From: Phycisphaerae bacterium
GTDB lineage: Bacteria > Planctomycetota > Phycisphaerae > UBA1845 > UTPLA1
Reading direction: 5' to 3'
NCBI GenBank assembly: GCA_019636475.1
Contig: JAHBXN010000003.1
Location: 186,001 to 250,000 of the forward strand
Length of the DNA: 64,000 nt
The notes under the pieces were generated by a model. It saw nothing but the letters and a program-made list of their open reading frames with translations. It was not told the origin of the DNA and made no database searches. A program made the position numbers and the translations under genes. This document shows, piece by piece, positions 27 through 56,505 of the stretch (position 1 is its first letter; every line of letters starts with the position of its first letter).

Positions 27-902
27 TCAGATCCCGAATGCGTAGAACAGCGCGGTGAATATCACATCGGCCGTGATCAACGCGACGATCGACTTGACAA
101 CCGTGTTCGTCGTCGCCTGCCCGACACCTGCCGCGCCGCCTCGCACGTTCAATCCCTCATGACAGGCGATCAGCGCGATCATCGCGCCAAATACGCCCGC
201 CTTGAAGATCCCGCCCAGAAAATCCCTCGGCAGCACCGCGGCCCGGGTGTAGCTGATGTACTGGTCCGCGGACAAATCAAGGATGAAAACCGACGTCAGG
301 AATCCGCCCAGCACGCCGATGACATCCGCCAATACCGTGAGCAGCGTCAGCATGATGACCGTCGCCAGAAATCTTGGCACGACAAGAAACCGAATTGGAT
401 TCAACGCCGTCGCACGCAGCGCCTTGATTTCCTCGCCTTCAACCATCGTCCCCAACTCAGCCGCGATGCTTGCACCGGCAAACCCTGAAAGCACGATGCC
501 CGCGAGCAGCGGGCCCAATTCTCGGAACATCGCCACCGCGACGATATCCGCGACGCGCTCCAACTGACCATACCATTTCAATGTCGGCGCCATCTGAAGA
601 CACAGGATGATCCCGATGAATATCTCAACCAGAAAAATAATTGGGATGCTCTTGATGCCGACCCGCACCATTTGAGTGTAGATATGGTCCAGTCCGATCC
701 GCGCGTCACGGCGGAACACCATGCGGTGGATCCACGCCAGCGTGCTGCCGCAAAGCGCAGTCGCTCCCCCGATAAATGCAACGACATCGATTGTCTTTTT
801 GATCTGACTGTCGGTCAATCCACCGACATACTCCACCGCGCGCACGATCGGTCCGGGTTCAGTCGAGTTTTCCGCGGTCGGATTGGAAGGCCGATCACTC
901 AT
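27..902 (-). CDS. mlaE: MlaE-type ABC transporter permease
   Basis: Predicted inner-membrane permease of an MCE/Mla-type phospholipid transporter. After a short polar N-terminus the protein has several hydrophobic segments separated by the MlaE-family core: FRELGPLLAGIVLSGFAGAS, then an AAELGTM..EEIKAL stretch that in the family contacts the ATPase. The C-terminus ends in hydrophobic helices. Length (about 291 residues) fits the family. I chose the ATG at 902 (MSDRPSNP); a GTG at 968 would add 22 residues without hydrophobic or conserved content. No matching ATPase or MCE gene is beside it here, but mlaF and mlaD homologues lie at 48.9-51.2 kb. Whether the three proteins form one complex is inference. 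Confidence 0.9.
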   Translation of the reverse strand: MSDRPSNPTAENSTEPGPIVRAVEYVGGLTDSQIKKTIDVVAFIGGATALCGSTLAWIHRMVFRRDARIGLDHIYTQMVRVGIKSIPIIFLVEIFIGIILCLQMAPTLKWYGQLERVADIVAVAMFRELGPLLAGIVLSGFAGASIAAELGTMVEGEEIKALRATALNPIRFLVVPRFLATVIMLTLLTVLADVIGVLGGFLTSVFILDLSADQYISYTRAAVLPRDFLGGIFKAGVFGAMIALIACHEGLNVRGGAAGVGQATTNTVVKSIVALITADVIFTALFYAFGI

Positions 903-48947: not shown

Positions 48948-50270
48948 TCAACCACCCCGGCCGCCAAGCTGCTTCCAGACTTCCGCCTCCGCTCGATCAT
49001 AAATTTCCGCCGATTCCTTCAGGTCCGCCTGAATTCGGGCGAGGTCAGGATCGTCAAGCGGAATCTGCCCATTGTGGAGCTCCGCGAGAGCTCGAAGCTG
49101 GGCTGTTGCGCCGTCGATTCTTGAAGCAGCCTCCGAAAAGCTCCGTGCAGCATCAAAGAGTGACTGCTGCCGCAGTTCCGCAAGCGAGGGCGGGTTAAAC
49201 AGTTTCCACGGATTTCGAAGGACGTACTTCAGTCCGGTTTTGATATGATCGGAAGATTCCTTAAGGTTGATCAACGTGCGATTCAGGTTCTCTCGATTCA
49301 GCACCATCACGTCGCGCGTCGCCTTTGTGACGGTATTAATGTCCATCACGGACGCGTTGATAAGCTCGCTGGTCTGCTTCAGATGCGCCATGAGGCTGGA
49401 GGGGAGCTCCGGATCCGTCTCCGCCCGAAAATGATCGGACATGGTCTCGACATTTGCCAGCGTCTTGGTAATCGGCTCCTCGCCGCTGGCAAGGATTCGC
49501 TTGATTACGGTCAGGCCGTCATTGATGCCGTCCATGGCCATATGCAGCTTGGCCAGCGTCACGTTCGGCCGGGACGGATCGAACTCGCGCCGGAGCGAGC
49601 CGGTCATTTCCGCGATGTTGTCAGCGACGAGGTGCAGTTTCGACAAAACGGTCGCCCGTTCAGAGACGGTCAGCTCGTTCGCAAGCGAAGCGGTCATCGA
49701 GTTGATGTCGGCCAGAGATTGATGCAGCTTGGCAATAAGCGATGTGGCCGCCTCCGGATCGAGTTGCATCTTCAACTGACCTAGCAGACTGGCCGGATTC
49801 GTTGAGTCGAATTCGCTTTGAACGGATGCCAGTAATGCGGCGAACCCTCCCGGCTCGGCGCCTGCGATGAATTCGCCTTCGAAGAGTTTGTCAGACCTGC
49901 CAAGATCGATCTTCACGATCCCGTCGCCGCCAAGCGGCGGTCCTTCCGCGAATGCGGAGCAGTCAGCACGAAGCCGGATGTCAGCGCGAAGGCTGATTTT
50001 CGCCTCGACGAAGTAGGTCGGCTTCGATTCATCGCTCCCGGGATCGCGAACGAGCGATGTCGCATCGACGCGACCCACCTTCTGACCACCGACCAACACA
50101 AAAGACCCGGGTGCCAGACTTGGCATGATCGTCGTCGGCTCAAACCGGACGAAAATCGTGGACATCCGTCCGCTGACGCCCTTGCTGACAAGAATCAGCA
50201 CGACGACCGCAACGACCACGACAATAATCGTGAAAACTCCGAGCTTGAATGCGTTTCGTTCTTTTGCCAT
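48948..50270 (-). CDS. mlaD: MCE-domain substrate-binding protein
   Basis: 440 residues. One N-terminal membrane helix (LGVFTIIVVVVAVVVLILVS) anchors a periplasmic MCE domain (about residues 35-140, MPSLAPGSFVLVGGQKVGRV and FAEGPPLGGDGIVKIDLG), followed by a long helical region (about 155-440), as in MlaD-type proteins that carry phospholipids. The start shares one base with the stop of mlaF (TGATG), so the genes are coupled. A permease is not adjacent, but MlaE lies at the far left end of the window. Confidence 0.9.
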   Translation of the reverse strand: MAKERNAFKLGVFTIIVVVVAVVVLILVSKGVSGRMSTIFVRFEPTTIMPSLAPGSFVLVGGQKVGRVDATSLVRDPGSDESKPTYFVEAKISLRADIRLRADCSAFAEGPPLGGDGIVKIDLGRSDKLFEGEFIAGAEPGGFAALLASVQSEFDSTNPASLLGQLKMQLDPEAATSLIAKLHQSLADINSMTASLANELTVSERATVLSKLHLVADNIAEMTGSLRREFDPSRPNVTLAKLHMAMDGINDGLTVIKRILASGEEPITKTLANVETMSDHFRAETDPELPSSLMAHLKQTSELINASVMDINTVTKATRDVMVLNRENLNRTLINLKESSDHIKTGLKYVLRNPWKLFNPPSLAELRQQSLFDAARSFSEAASRIDGATAQLRALAELHNGQIPLDDPDLARIQADLKESAEIYDRAEAEVWKQLGGRGG

Positions 50271-51160
50271 CAGTAGTTCGACTCGGGTGAAAGAACCAGC
50301 AGCTTTTCAAATTCCGTCATGCCGTCAGAGTCGGTCAGCGGTCCGGTCGTGCGGCCGTTCAGAAATTGATTCATCAGCCGATCGGCGTCATTCGTCAGGT
50401 TCTCGTACGACGTATCGCGAAGCACTTCGAATTCGTGACGCGATCCGATCTTGAGGACACGGCCTTTCTCCAGCATGACCATCCGGTCCGCGATTCGGAA
50501 GGCCGAATCCATCTCGTGCGTCACCACGATGCTCGTTACGTTCAACTTTTTCGACAGGTCCATGATCAAATCGTCTATTGCCGCGCTCGTGACTGGATCG
50601 AGTCCGGCCGACGGTTCATCGTAGAAAAGTATCTCCGGATCCAGCACCGTGGCCCGCGCGAGGCCAGCACGTTTCTTCTGGCCGCCCGAGAGTTGCGACG
50701 GCAGTTTGTCCCGATGCGGCAGCATGTGAACCTGCTGCAACTTAAGTGTCACGACAATGTCAATGATTGACGGATCGACATAGCTGTGCTCGCGGAGCGG
50801 GAGCGCGACGTTCTCAGCCAGCGTCATGGAGTTGAAGAGCGCCCCGCTCTGAAAGAGGATGCCGAATCGTTTGCGAATTTCGTTCAGGCCGGATTCGTCC
50901 ATGCCAACGATATTACGGGGCGCGGACATGTCCCTCGTCCTGAAATGAATGCTGCCATGTGTGACGTCATATTCGCCGATCAGACAGTTCAGCAGAGTGC
51001 TCTTACCGCATCCGCTACCGCCCATGATGACGATCGTCTCACCGCGATGAATGTCGAATGTGATCCGATCGAGCACAATGACTTCGTCGCCGTCGTTACT
51101 GGTGAACGACTTGCGCAAGTCCTGGATCGAAATGACTACGTCACGCTTTTCGGACACCAA
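50270..51160 (-). CDS. mlaF: MlaF-type ABC transporter ATPase
   Basis: 296 residues with all ABC motifs: Walker A GGSGCGKSTLLN, signature LSGGQKKR, Walker B ILFYDEPSAGLDPVT and the H-loop VTHEMDSAF. The residues around the signature and the C-terminal extension resemble MlaF rather than other importers. The start is a TTG at 51160 or the next GTG; no ATG is available. It is one unit with mlaD; the permease gene is separate. Confidence 0.9.
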   Translation of the reverse strand: MVSEKRDVVISIQDLRKSFTSNDGDEVIVLDRITFDIHRGETIVIMGGSGCGKSTLLNCLIGEYDVTHGSIHFRTRDMSAPRNIVGMDESGLNEIRKRFGILFQSGALFNSMTLAENVALPLREHSYVDPSIIDIVVTLKLQQVHMLPHRDKLPSQLSGGQKKRAGLARATVLDPEILFYDEPSAGLDPVTSAAIDDLIMDLSKKLNVTSIVVTHEMDSAFRIADRMVMLEKGRVLKIGSRHEFEVLRDTSYENLTNDADRLMNQFLNGRTTGPLTDSDGMTEFEKLLVLSPESNY

Positions 51161-51499: not shown

Positions 51500-53191
51500 T
51501 CAGCCTTGCAGTCGGCGGATATCGCTCAGTTTCCCTTCGATGCCGATGAAGTTGTAGAACTGCTCCTGCGTCAGCACCGGAACCGAGAAGTATGTGGCGC
51601 GGCGCCGCGCGTCGCGGAACCGTTCAGCCTCATTTGCATACCTGCGCTTCAGGACCGGAATCGTCGGATCGACTTCGGGCTTTCGTTGGATGCCGGCTGG
51701 GCCATCCTGCATGGCGCCGATCCCGCCATTACCACCATCGGCATCGTCATCGTCTGACGTGTCCTCGTCATCGGACGAGTCATCGTCGTCATCGGAATCG
51801 GCCTCGTCGCTAGAATCTTCGTCATCGCTGGTTCCGACGGCCTCTTCGGCGGTTTCTTCGTCTCCGCTCTCGTCCGCGGTCGCAGCGGCCGGCGTTGAAG
51901 CCGCCGCCTCCGTCGGAACGACATCCTCGCCGCGCGGCGGCGTTCCGACGACAAGATAGTCTGTGGCCGCTGTCACCTCATCAGTGACGACGCCGCCCCA
52001 GCGCTCAATCAGGGCAATCACCTGTTCGCGGCCGCGTACATCCGGCTCGCCATCGAAGTCGGTATCAAATTCACCGACGACGACGAATCGTTGCTTCTTG
52101 TTTCGGTTCTTGCTGATCACGATGTTATTGACCGAATCCCCTTCGAGAATCGGATCGTCCGGCGACGCCGGCGACACCACCCGGCACTCGGCTGTTCGGG
52201 CATCGACGCTCCGAACTTCCAGGCTGGCCTTTCCTCGGCCGCTGGCTGGCACACGCTCATCAGAGGAATACACGCTGAAGGTCATTCCGAGTGCGACATT
52301 GTCGTCGCGACCAAGATTGATGTAGCAGAGTGAATCGCCCGGGAGAATTCGAAGCACTTTCCCCAGCGGCTTGCGGGCCACAGCCAGCGGCTCCGCATTT
52401 GTCGGCACGTTTCCGCGATACTCCTTGATTGCGCCGGCCTGGGCCAGAAGCATCTCGTCCTGCTCCTTGAGTGTCGCGGCGATTTGCCGTTTCTGGCGGG
52501 CGTGCGTCACCTTAGCATCTTCAAGTTCGCTTCGAGTCGCTTCGACCTTACTTGCAAGCGCGCGGACCTCGGCGCCCTTGACTTCCTCGAAGTCGCTCTT
52601 CGCTCGCTGAAGTTCCTCCACCTGCGCGGTCAGCTTCGCCAACCGGTCGTCAAACGTGTCGCGAAGCTGCTTGATCTGTTCCTGAGCCTCGGCCAACGAC
52701 TTGAGGGCCTTCTCGCTGGATTTGTCAGCCTGAATCCTGGCATCGCGCTCCGAGCTGTACTGTTCGTACAGTTTCTCAATCAACGCCACGGCCCCGCTCG
52801 ACGCGGCCAGGCTCGCGGCGTTGTCGTCAGTCCGGTCACCCGCAATCCGGGCGATGGCGGCGTCCAACTTGGCGAGTGCGGTCTGCGCCGAATCGTTCTG
52901 GTCGCCGGTGATCCGCCCCATCAACGCCTTCCCGGAGCGCATGATCTCCCCGACGAGCGTCTTGTTCTGGCCGGCCTGAACATTTGGGAACAGCCGTTTG
53001 ATTTCGTTCTCATCGTTGCCGCGGGCGATCTTGTTTCGTGCTGCGGTTGCAGATGCCGCATCGGCGCGCAACTGTTCCTGCAAGTTCACGAGCCAGATCA
53101 GCACGCCGGCAAGAATGAGGGCGACGACGATCGATACGACCATTCCGATCATGGTCCCGTTGGAACCACGCTGAGGCGCGACACCTGCCAT
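51500..53191 (-). CDS. Membrane-anchored coiled-coil protein with BRCT-like domain
   Basis: 563 residues. An N-terminal membrane helix (IGMVVSIVVALILAGVLIWL) is followed by a long coiled coil (about 115-265), then a beta-rich central domain (KVLRILPGDSLCYINLG...). A BRCT-like segment follows (KQRFVVVGEFDTDFDGEPDV...ALIERWGGVVTDEVTAAT-DYLVVG), and then a highly acidic Asp/Ser/Glu region (about 440-490) and a polar tail. BRCT modules bind phosphopeptides or DNA ends and are usually cytoplasmic, so a membrane-tethered one is unusual; the N-terminal topology places it in the cytoplasm only if the helix is N-out. Divergent from polA. Confidence 0.7.
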   Translation of the reverse strand: MAGVAPQRGSNGTMIGMVVSIVVALILAGVLIWLVNLQEQLRADAASATAARNKIARGNDENEIKRLFPNVQAGQNKTLVGEIMRSGKALMGRITGDQNDSAQTALAKLDAAIARIAGDRTDDNAASLAASSGAVALIEKLYEQYSSERDARIQADKSSEKALKSLAEAQEQIKQLRDTFDDRLAKLTAQVEELQRAKSDFEEVKGAEVRALASKVEATRSELEDAKVTHARQKRQIAATLKEQDEMLLAQAGAIKEYRGNVPTNAEPLAVARKPLGKVLRILPGDSLCYINLGRDDNVALGMTFSVYSSDERVPASGRGKASLEVRSVDARTAECRVVSPASPDDPILEGDSVNNIVISKNRNKKQRFVVVGEFDTDFDGEPDVRGREQVIALIERWGGVVTDEVTAATDYLVVGTPPRGEDVVPTEAAASTPAAATADESGDEETAEEAVGTSDDEDSSDEADSDDDDDSSDDEDTSDDDDADGGNGGIGAMQDGPAGIQRKPEVDPTIPVLKRRYANEAERFRDARRRATYFSVPVLTQEQFYNFIGIEGKLSDIRRLQG

Positions 53192-53565: not shown

Positions 53566-56505
53566 ATGCCCCACAAAACGCTCTATCTCATAGACGGACA
53601 TGCCCAGATTTATCGCGCCTACTACGCGCCGTTCGGGAATCTGACGTCACCCCGGGGCGAGCCAACTCGGGCCGTCCATGTCTTCACGCAGATGCTGCTG
53701 AATCTGCTCAGAGACCGGAAACCCGATCACCTCGCGATGATCATGGATGTGGATGATCGGACGGTCTTTCGCGTTCAGATCGATCCGGAATACAAGGCCA
53801 ATCGCGACAAATCGCCTGAAGATCTCGGTCCACAGATTGATCGAATCGTCTCAATCGTTTCCGCAATGAAGATTCCGATTCTGCGTCTAAGCGGCTTTGA
53901 AGCGGACGATATCATTGCGACGCTTTGCCATCGGTTCGCGCGCGATCCGCTCGATGTATACCTCGTGAGCCGAGACAAGGATCTCGACCAGCTATTGACG
54001 GACCGGGTTCGAATGTACGACCCGGGAAAGGACGTCGTGATCGACGCCGCTTCGATGACGACCGATAAAGGATATCCGCCAGGACTGGCAGTCGAAGCTC
54101 AGATGCTCATTGGCGATAGCGCGGATAATGTCAAAGGCGTCCCGGGCGTTGGACCCAAGAAAGCAGCTCAACTCTTGTCGCAATACGGCTCGGTAGCCGC
54201 CATTATCGAAAACGCCGAACAACTGACGCCGAAGCTCCGCGAGAACATGCTCGCATTTCGTGATCGGATGGACGCCGTCCGCCAGCTTGTCACGTTGCGC
54301 CGTGATGTCCCGATTGATCTCACGCTTGAAAGCGCGGACGTGTCTCGCTTTACGCCCGCCGCAGCTGGACCGATTCTCGCGGAGCTGGGTCTGAACCGAT
54401 TACTGGACCGCATCGCCGGCGCATCGCCCGATTCCGGATCGCGCGATTCGGCCGCTCCGCCTGCCATGGGCGCTCTGGACGCTCGACGCAACGTACAGAT
54501 GGCGTCGAAACAGGACACACTCTTCAGTTCATCAGAGACGACCGCGCCGGACGAAGCGGCTCAGGACGAGTACAACCACGCATCAAGCGATGATGAGGCC
54601 ACACATGCGAAGTTGACTGCTGAGTCGACGTTTGCCGACGGCCTGTTCGGCCCGGACACCGGTGGTGATCTCATCTCGCCGCTTCAGGGTACAGACAATC
54701 CCGCTTATCGTCTGATCGATACCGAGGCCGCATTGACGGATTTGGCCACAACACTCGCCAAACAATCGGCTTTCGCATTCGACACTGAAACGACAGGTCT
54801 CGTGCCCGTCGATTCCGATTTGTGCGGCATCAGCATCGCGTATGAATTCGGATCCGCCTATTACATCGCGGTTCGGGGCGTTGGCCCGCTCGTCACCGAA
54901 GAGGCTGTTCGAACGCACCTAGGTCCAATTTTTGCCGATGAGCGCATTCGCAAGTGCGGGCAGAATTTGAAGTACGACTTGAACATACTTGCCGGAATCG
55001 GCATCGTCGTGCGGGGTGTTGACTTTGATTCGATGATCGCCAGTTTCGTGCTCGATCCGCTTCGACGTTCGCACGGCATCGACGGCCTCGCGATGGAATT
55101 ACTCCACTTCCGAAAAATCCCCACTCAGGCGTTGATCGGCAAGGGCAAGGACCAGATCACATTTGCCCAGGTTCCGACGGATCGAACTTCTCAGTATGCA
55201 TGTGAAGATGCGGACATTGCGTGGCGACTGCGACAGTCCCTCGAAAAACAAATGACCGATCCGGAAATTCGGGCTTTGTTTCACGACCTGGAAATGCCGC
55301 TCGTCGAAGTCCTCATGCGGATGGAACGCCATGGCATCGCCGTCGATCGAAACCTGCTCTTGCAGCTCAGCGGCGAGATGACCGAGAGATTGGCACGGCT
55401 TGAAGTGCAGATCCACGAGCAGGCGAAACGACCATTTAATATCAACTCCACCAAACAACTCGCGGAGGTTCTCTTCGACGAACTTGGCTTGCGCGTCGTC
55501 AAACGAACCCGCACGTCCCGATCCACTGACGCCGAAGTTCTCGAAACGCTCGCCAACGAAACCGAACAGCCGATCCTTCGGCTGCTGCTCGAACACCGCG
55601 AACTGTCCAAGCTGAAGGGCACATACGTCGATTCCCTGCCCGACATGATCAGTCGGCGCACGGGGCGGATTCATCCGAGTTTCCATCAGGCCGGCGCCGT
55701 CACCGGACGGCTCTCGTGCAGCGATCCGAACCTTCAGAACATCCCAATTCGCACCGAGGAAGGCGCCAAAATTCGGCGCGCGTTCGTCCCCGGCAACCGC
55801 GACCACGTCCTCATCAAGGCCGACTATTCCCAGATCGAGTTGCGCGTGCTGGCCCATTTCAGCGGGGATGAGAACCTGCGCGACGCCTTCCTTCACGACC
55901 GCGACATTCACGCCTTTGTCGCCGCCCAACTCAACGACATCCCGATTGAGGACGTTTCAAAAGAGCAGCGGTCACGTGCAAAAACCGTCAACTTCGGAAT
56001 CGTTTACGGCCAATCCGCATTCGGACTTGCCCGACAGACCGGCATGTCGCAGGCTGATGCCCGGCAGTTCATTGATCGCTATTTTGCCCGTTATCCTCGA
56101 ATCCGGGGCTTCCTCGATCAATGCGTCGAACACGCTCGTCGGCATGGCTATGTCAAAACAATCCTTGGCCGGCGAAGGCCGATAGCCGATATTTCATCGC
56201 GCAACCAGGCCGCACGAAACGCGGCCGAACGTTTGGCAGTTAACACGGTCGTGCAGGGATCCGCGGCCGATCTGATCAAACGCGCCATGATTAATCTCGA
56301 TCGGCGAATCGAAACCGAACGGCGTCCGATGCGGATGCTGCTCCAGGTACATGACGAATTGGTGTTCGAAGTCCCGCGGGAGCGCGCGGCCGAAGAGGCT
56401 CGGGTGATTGTAAAGGAAATGTCCGAGGCACTGACACTCAACGTGCCCATAAGGGTCGATGTCGCGGTGGGAGAAAACTGGCTCGATATGACTTCCGTCA
56501 TGTGA
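53566..56505 (+). CDS. polA: DNA polymerase I
   Basis: 979 residues with three domains. 5' nuclease (1-285): LYLIDGHAQIYRAYYAPF and the helix-hairpin-helix KGVPGVGPKKAAQLLSQYG. A 3'-5' proofreading exonuclease starts near 390 with intact acidic residues in FDTETTGL (Asp406, Glu408). The family A polymerase has motif A ADYSQIELRVLAHFSGDE, the O-helix RSRAKTVNFGIVYGQSA and motif C QVHDELVFE. The ATG at 53566 begins MPHKTLYLIDG with AAGGCGG upstream. A low-complexity linker of about 90 residues separates the nuclease from the exonuclease. Confidence 0.97.
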   Translation: MPHKTLYLIDGHAQIYRAYYAPFGNLTSPRGEPTRAVHVFTQMLLNLLRDRKPDHLAMIMDVDDRTVFRVQIDPEYKANRDKSPEDLGPQIDRIVSIVSAMKIPILRLSGFEADDIIATLCHRFARDPLDVYLVSRDKDLDQLLTDRVRMYDPGKDVVIDAASMTTDKGYPPGLAVEAQMLIGDSADNVKGVPGVGPKKAAQLLSQYGSVAAIIENAEQLTPKLRENMLAFRDRMDAVRQLVTLRRDVPIDLTLESADVSRFTPAAAGPILAELGLNRLLDRIAGASPDSGSRDSAAPPAMGALDARRNVQMASKQDTLFSSSETTAPDEAAQDEYNHASSDDEATHAKLTAESTFADGLFGPDTGGDLISPLQGTDNPAYRLIDTEAALTDLATTLAKQSAFAFDTETTGLVPVDSDLCGISIAYEFGSAYYIAVRGVGPLVTEEAVRTHLGPIFADERIRKCGQNLKYDLNILAGIGIVVRGVDFDSMIASFVLDPLRRSHGIDGLAMELLHFRKIPTQALIGKGKDQITFAQVPTDRTSQYACEDADIAWRLRQSLEKQMTDPEIRALFHDLEMPLVEVLMRMERHGIAVDRNLLLQLSGEMTERLARLEVQIHEQAKRPFNINSTKQLAEVLFDELGLRVVKRTRTSRSTDAEVLETLANETEQPILRLLLEHRELSKLKGTYVDSLPDMISRRTGRIHPSFHQAGAVTGRLSCSDPNLQNIPIRTEEGAKIRRAFVPGNRDHVLIKADYSQIELRVLAHFSGDENLRDAFLHDRDIHAFVAAQLNDIPIEDVSKEQRSRAKTVNFGIVYGQSAFGLARQTGMSQADARQFIDRYFARYPRIRGFLDQCVEHARRHGYVKTILGRRRPIADISSRNQAARNAAERLAVNTVVQGSAADLIKRAMINLDRRIETERRPMRMLLQVHDELVFEVPRERAAEEARVIVKEMSEALTLNVPIRVDVAVGENWLDMTSVM

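Follow-up and report, generated by a model that had tools for sequence, protein, structure and literature searches.

FlgT is an H-ring protein, and MreC combines a membrane helix, a helical region and a beta domain in this order. Passages of PMC13023049 describe H-rings as structures that decorate the flagellar motor in the periplasm, and a passage of PMC10653833 describes TsaP as a protein that stabilises the outer-membrane secretin. As for BRCT proteins, a review of BRCT (PMC10386641) states that most bacterial species seem to have one or two of them, namely DNA ligase and one subunit of DNA polymerase III.

Here we describe a gene from a Phycisphaerae bacterium, located in a window of 64,000 nucleotides (the whole stretch of DNA that was analysed), whose product begins with a single membrane helix, followed by a helical region, then a beta domain and finally a BRCT domain. 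This membrane BRCT protein is real and widespread, and its domain order and relationship to BRCT are solid. We favour, with a probability of roughly 0.6, the reading that it is an envelope scaffold in the inner membrane whose BRCT domain has been repurposed, with a cytoplasmic N-terminus and all other parts beyond the helix periplasmic. If true, the family would be a third, membrane-bound kind of bacterial BRCT protein. In the open-licence literature and the listings searched, we found no paper that describes a BRCT protein of the membrane or periplasm in this phylum. The word BRCT is absent from the main texts of planctomycete essentiality and fractionation papers (PMC10632474, PMC8567305), and passages of these papers leave the gene unmentioned.

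Table 1 Features of the gene and its divergent neighbour, in window coordinates.
Feature	Residues	Position	Strand	Basis or remark
Whole gene	563 aa	51500..53191	-	ATG start; stop codon at 51500-51502
N-terminal membrane helix	about 13-36	53084..53155	-	hydropathy
Heptad-like helix	140-200	52592..52774	-	3/1000 shuffles reach the score
Beta domain, FlgT_C/TsaP-like	about 272-363	52103..52378	-	profile searches
BRCT, first part	about 364-418	51938..52102	-	boundaries from alignment; domain from Pfam and family profiles
DTDFDG calcium-type loop	376-381	52049..52066	-	motif; between first strand and first helix of BRCT
Acidic low-complexity insert inside BRCT	about 417-507	51671..51943	-	91 aa (22 Asp, 11 Glu)
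BRCT, last part	about 508-552	51536..51670	-	alignments with relatives
polA, divergent neighbour		53566..56505	+	Pfam on a relative; likely ATG at 53566 chosen by eye

A membrane-anchored protein with relatives across the phylum

A first-pass annotation, made from the letters of the window, had proposed the open reading frame and a membrane anchor for its product. The reading frame is real, with the start codon and product length given in Table 1, and the anchor corresponds to the one hydrophobic segment of the protein. The 12-residue tail that precedes this helix contains one Arg and no Asp or Glu. The annotation had also described a coiled coil. We tested five stretches of the helical region for heptad periodicity and found that it did not rise above shuffled sequences in residues 42-100, 100-140, 156-253 and 200-253. 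Because only residues 140-200 stand out, the term coiled coil is valid for part of the helical region only.

Using the protein as query, we found relatives in 16 of the 17 genomes of the source genome's family (the source genome itself included) and in 166 of the 294 genomes of a phylum sample, the phylum presumably being Planctomycetota. A 12-row profile of the beta domain and BRCT, most of whose rows came from genomes of the same sample, gave matches at E<=0.001 in 290/294 genomes. The genome's own LigA already reaches about E 0.001 with this profile, so matches at E<=1e-10 were counted instead. These were present in 250/294 genomes, a count that proteins with the beta domain alone could inflate, while 40 genomes had weaker matches and four had none. 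Genomes labelled f49 (for example G049, G070 and G122), which are 86-100% complete, gave weak profile matches only (9.6e-8 to 6.8e-5), and the family may be strongly diverged or lost there. A plasmid search with the protein gave no match. The N-termini of several compact relatives (for example L023, L027, L031, L063, L110 and L117), judged by eye, resemble prepilin- or PilX-type leaders, with basic residues and Gly followed by a hydrophobic stretch (for example RERGMSFWP).

The beta domain and a modified BRCT domain

We analysed the beta domain and the C-terminal segment with Pfam models and with profiles searched against the PDB. The Pfam FlgT_C model scored 14.6 bits on the window protein and 20.1 bits on the domain alone (cut-off 27), and matched 13 of 20 family members at E<=0.1 (best 3.3e-7). 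In the PDB, TsaP was the sole match of the beta-domain profile to pass 0.001 (1.7e-4; best single stretch, i-Evalue 0.079). Ranked below it, none of them significant, were a "flagella basal-body protein", which we take to be FlgT, at 0.026 and 0.055, a ribosomal bL27c chain at 0.072, then a LysM protein at 0.12 and lastly a splicing factor at 0.78. The central beta domain noticed in the first-pass annotation is supported by this weak FlgT_C similarity.

The Pfam BRCT model matched residues 388-420 of the window protein with 17.2 bits, below its cut-off of 21.3. It matched 15 of 20 family members at E<=0.05 (best 7.7e-10), and the relatives L108 and L073 exceeded the cut-off. L073 (8379-9710) carries two BRCT stretches in one protein. 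When a profile of 20 relatives was searched against the PDB, the DNA ligase 1l7b ranked first (1.9e-11), followed by RFC1 (8.4e-8 and 4.2e-7), and other ligases and Mdb1 were also found below 0.001. The first 15 rows, up to E 0.25, are presumably all BRCT-carrying proteins; below them come three chains that are unrelated (0.26-0.75). With a profile built from five compact relatives, the match to 1l7b spanned positions 3-78 of 81 (3.6e-11). That the segment is another small alpha/beta domain merely resembling BRCT is highly improbable. Such a domain would fit the sub-threshold Pfam score of the window protein alone and the low confidence of two AlphaFold models (mean pLDDT 43.4 and 43.7, from alignments of the window protein and L002 alone). 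The ranking of BRCT proteins in the PDB searches, the relatives above the Pfam cut-off, one of them with two BRCT stretches, and the conserved glycines that the family has in common with LigA argue against it. Judged by these profiles, the C-terminal segment is a BRCT relative. Both the BRCT-like segment of the first-pass annotation and its placement in a membrane-anchored protein thereby gained support, the latter from the profile matches together with the hydrophobic segment.

The same annotation had ended the protein in an acidic tail. The Asp/Ser/Glu-rich stretch is present, but it is an insert within the BRCT domain and not a C-terminal tail, because the last ~45 residues (about 508-552) align with the final strand and helix of BRCT in insert-free relatives. 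Among the 14 copies of the window's family, the third strand and the second helix are separated by 95 to 194 residues in 11 copies and by 38 to 41 in the other three. In copies outside this family, the median is 13 residues and the maximum 40.

In BRCT domains, phosphate is bound by a Ser/Thr before the first-strand Gly and by a Lys of the second helix. We took these pocket positions from the genome's own LigA BRCT and aligned them to 146 copies of the family. The first-strand Gly was kept in 144/146 copies. The residue before it was Ser/Thr in 11 copies and something else in 135, and the second-helix position was Lys/Arg in 55/146. Both positions agreed with a phosphate-binding pair in 4/146 copies, with Lys or Arg allowed, and the window protein, with Val and Arg, does not have the pair. 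A passage of PMC10504179 links the phosphate pocket of prokaryotic BRCT domains to the phosphates found where DNA is nicked or ends. Loss of the pocket still leaves room for DNA binding, because the BRCT of the RFC complex contacts DNA mainly through another face, according to part of PMC9293009.

The DTDFDG loop of the window protein agrees with the Dx[DN]xDG sequence motif of calcium sites. The pattern D-x-[DNST]-x-D-G, which was set after the sequences had been seen, occurs in 39/146 copies, always at the same site of the BRCT, including all 14 of the window's family, and is absent from that site in 107/146; related copies are not independent in these counts. Elsewhere, the pattern matched four further times in 65,571 residues of the family and nine times in 84,720 residues of 84 long open reading frames. 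According to the motif paper (PMC3123361), which does not mention BRCT, known Dx[DN]xDG sites are strongly biased to periplasmic, surface or secreted proteins, apart from EF-hands and a few other exceptions. The motif suggests that the BRCT loop may bind calcium.

Gene neighbourhood

To describe the neighbourhood, we used 121 loci that carry 146 copies in total. Besides the window and L002, they comprise 119 stretches hand-picked from the listed matches, a choice biased to the better ones. Each neighbour was identified from one representative gene and extended by phmmer, and L002 was treated as one unlabelled family. In the window, 374 bp separate the gene from polA when the polA start of Table 1 is used. 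Among the 107 loci that include 3 kb of upstream sequence, close divergent polA was found in 26 (9 of 47 family labels), and divergent polA, coaE or rho in 57 (28 labels). Downstream on the same strand, tatC was present in 43/110 loci (27 of 49 labels); in 37 of these it lay within 200 bp. A lipid A acyltransferase-like gene followed in 12/110 loci (3 labels). The counts of 26 and 43 allow overlaps from over-extended reading frames; a stricter count gives 22/107 for divergent polA and 40/110 for tatC. The first-pass annotation had thought that the adjacency to polA may be chance. This was not supported, because the divergent arrangement recurs across loci and family labels.

Two copies of the gene lie in 25/121 loci (for example L072, L106, L122 and L146). 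In the window, an ABC ATPase gene and an MlaD-like gene follow the gene instead of tatC. The ABC ATPase is MlaF-like, the pair occupies 48948-51160 on the minus strand, and the short gap before it holds no permease gene. A match to MlaE is found near the opposite end of the window (48-680).

The adjacent tatC suggests a possible link to Tat export. It is also possible, if tentative, that the neighbourhood is ancestral gene order only and that the role of the protein is unrelated to its neighbours, which is compatible with the other readings. The downstream partners do differ between loci, and 37 of the 121 loci have none of seven marker genes in the stretch around the gene. The recurrence of tatC on the same strand, mostly at short distance, speaks against gene order alone.

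Side of the membrane and comparison with known systems

Topology was assessed in the 137 copies in which a helix was detected; nine of the 146 had none and were dropped, two of these touching a contig end. We compared them with controls that we take to be C-outside (MCE and ExbD) or C-inside (AtpF and YajC), where the MCE and AtpF sets, of 30 proteins each, lost one protein apiece for want of a detected helix. The net charge difference across the helix was positive in 111/137 copies, zero in 16 and negative in 10. Its mean (+1.85) resembles those of MCE (+1.45) and ExbD (+0.97) more than those of AtpF (-0.59) and YajC (-4.50). The K/R difference alone had a mean of -0.63, between the control classes, with 26 copies above, 37 at and 74 below zero. 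Nine classifiers, all given here as a range, called 66 to 96 of the 137 copies C-outside, with a control accuracy of 0.71-0.87 and a score of 0.64-0.83 for the window protein. The charge of the N-terminal tail (median nine residues), which was examined afterwards, was net positive in 110/137 copies, neutral in 22 and negative in 5. In the relative L108, a basic stretch separates two hydrophobic segments, an arrangement that fits C-outside.

A location of the domain outside the cytoplasm, which the first-pass annotation had set against its own proposal, gains support from the relatives of the beta domain, from the calcium-type loop and from the positively charged N-tails; it is not settled, because the charge classifiers are equivocal. 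From this combined evidence, and not from charge alone, we consider the BRCT to be probably periplasmic. The opposite orientation, with the N-terminus outside and a cytoplasmic BRCT tethering DNA-repair or replication factors to the membrane, such as the DNA polymerase I encoded next door, is unlikely. It would suit the equivocal K/R counts and classifiers, the divergent polA, coaE or rho beside the gene, and the statement in PMC10386641 that BRCT proteins are implicated mostly in the DNA damage response, repair and cell-cycle control. However, divergent neighbours need not have a compartment in common, and the FlgT_C/TsaP-like domain, the calcium-type loop, the positive N-tails and the absence of the pocket Ser/Thr from most copies speak against a cytoplasmic tether.

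In the favoured envelope reading, the helix would anchor the protein in the inner membrane, leaving the N-terminus on the cytoplasmic side and the remainder on the periplasmic side, and the helical region would form a stalk. The beta domain would dock on an envelope partner. The BRCT, its canonical phosphate pocket mostly lost, would be a protein-binding or self-association module, which in part of the family would have gained the calcium-type loop. This arrangement suggests a role as a scaffold. Points against it are the equivocal K/R counts and classifiers, the single significant PDB match of the beta domain and its score below the Pfam cut-off in the window protein, the copies that lack the loop, the poor AlphaFold models, and the cytoplasmic action of polA, coaE and rho. 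We hold at somewhat better than even odds the more specific proposal of an extracytoplasmic BRCT in a widespread inner-membrane envelope protein that has lost the phosphate pocket, binds calcium through its loop in part of the family and possibly works with the adjacent Tat system. If the BRCT is periplasmic, a fold of DNA-damage proteins would have been recruited into the bacterial envelope early in the history of the phylum, and a widespread gene that has no known role would become testable.

Among known systems, MreC was considered because of its order of domains and was rejected. Just one of 20 family members matches the MreC barrel (E 0.078), and the source genome has a separate MreC above the cut-off. 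The beta domain has profile similarity, weak in the case of the window protein, to TsaP and the C-terminal domain of FlgT (Pfam FlgT_C). The protein differs from them in that the scans gave no LysM match and that it has the membrane helix, helical region and BRCT instead. With the BRCT of LigA, the family has a profile relationship, and three Gly of the genome's own LigA are kept in 144/146, 134/146 and 127/146 copies and one Ala in 135/146. In contrast to LigA, the BRCT described here is not part of a ligase and sits behind a membrane helix, 11 of the 14 copies of the window's family have the long acidic insert, the pocket Ser/Thr and Lys positions are mostly changed in the 146 copies, and 39 of these carry the calcium-type loop.
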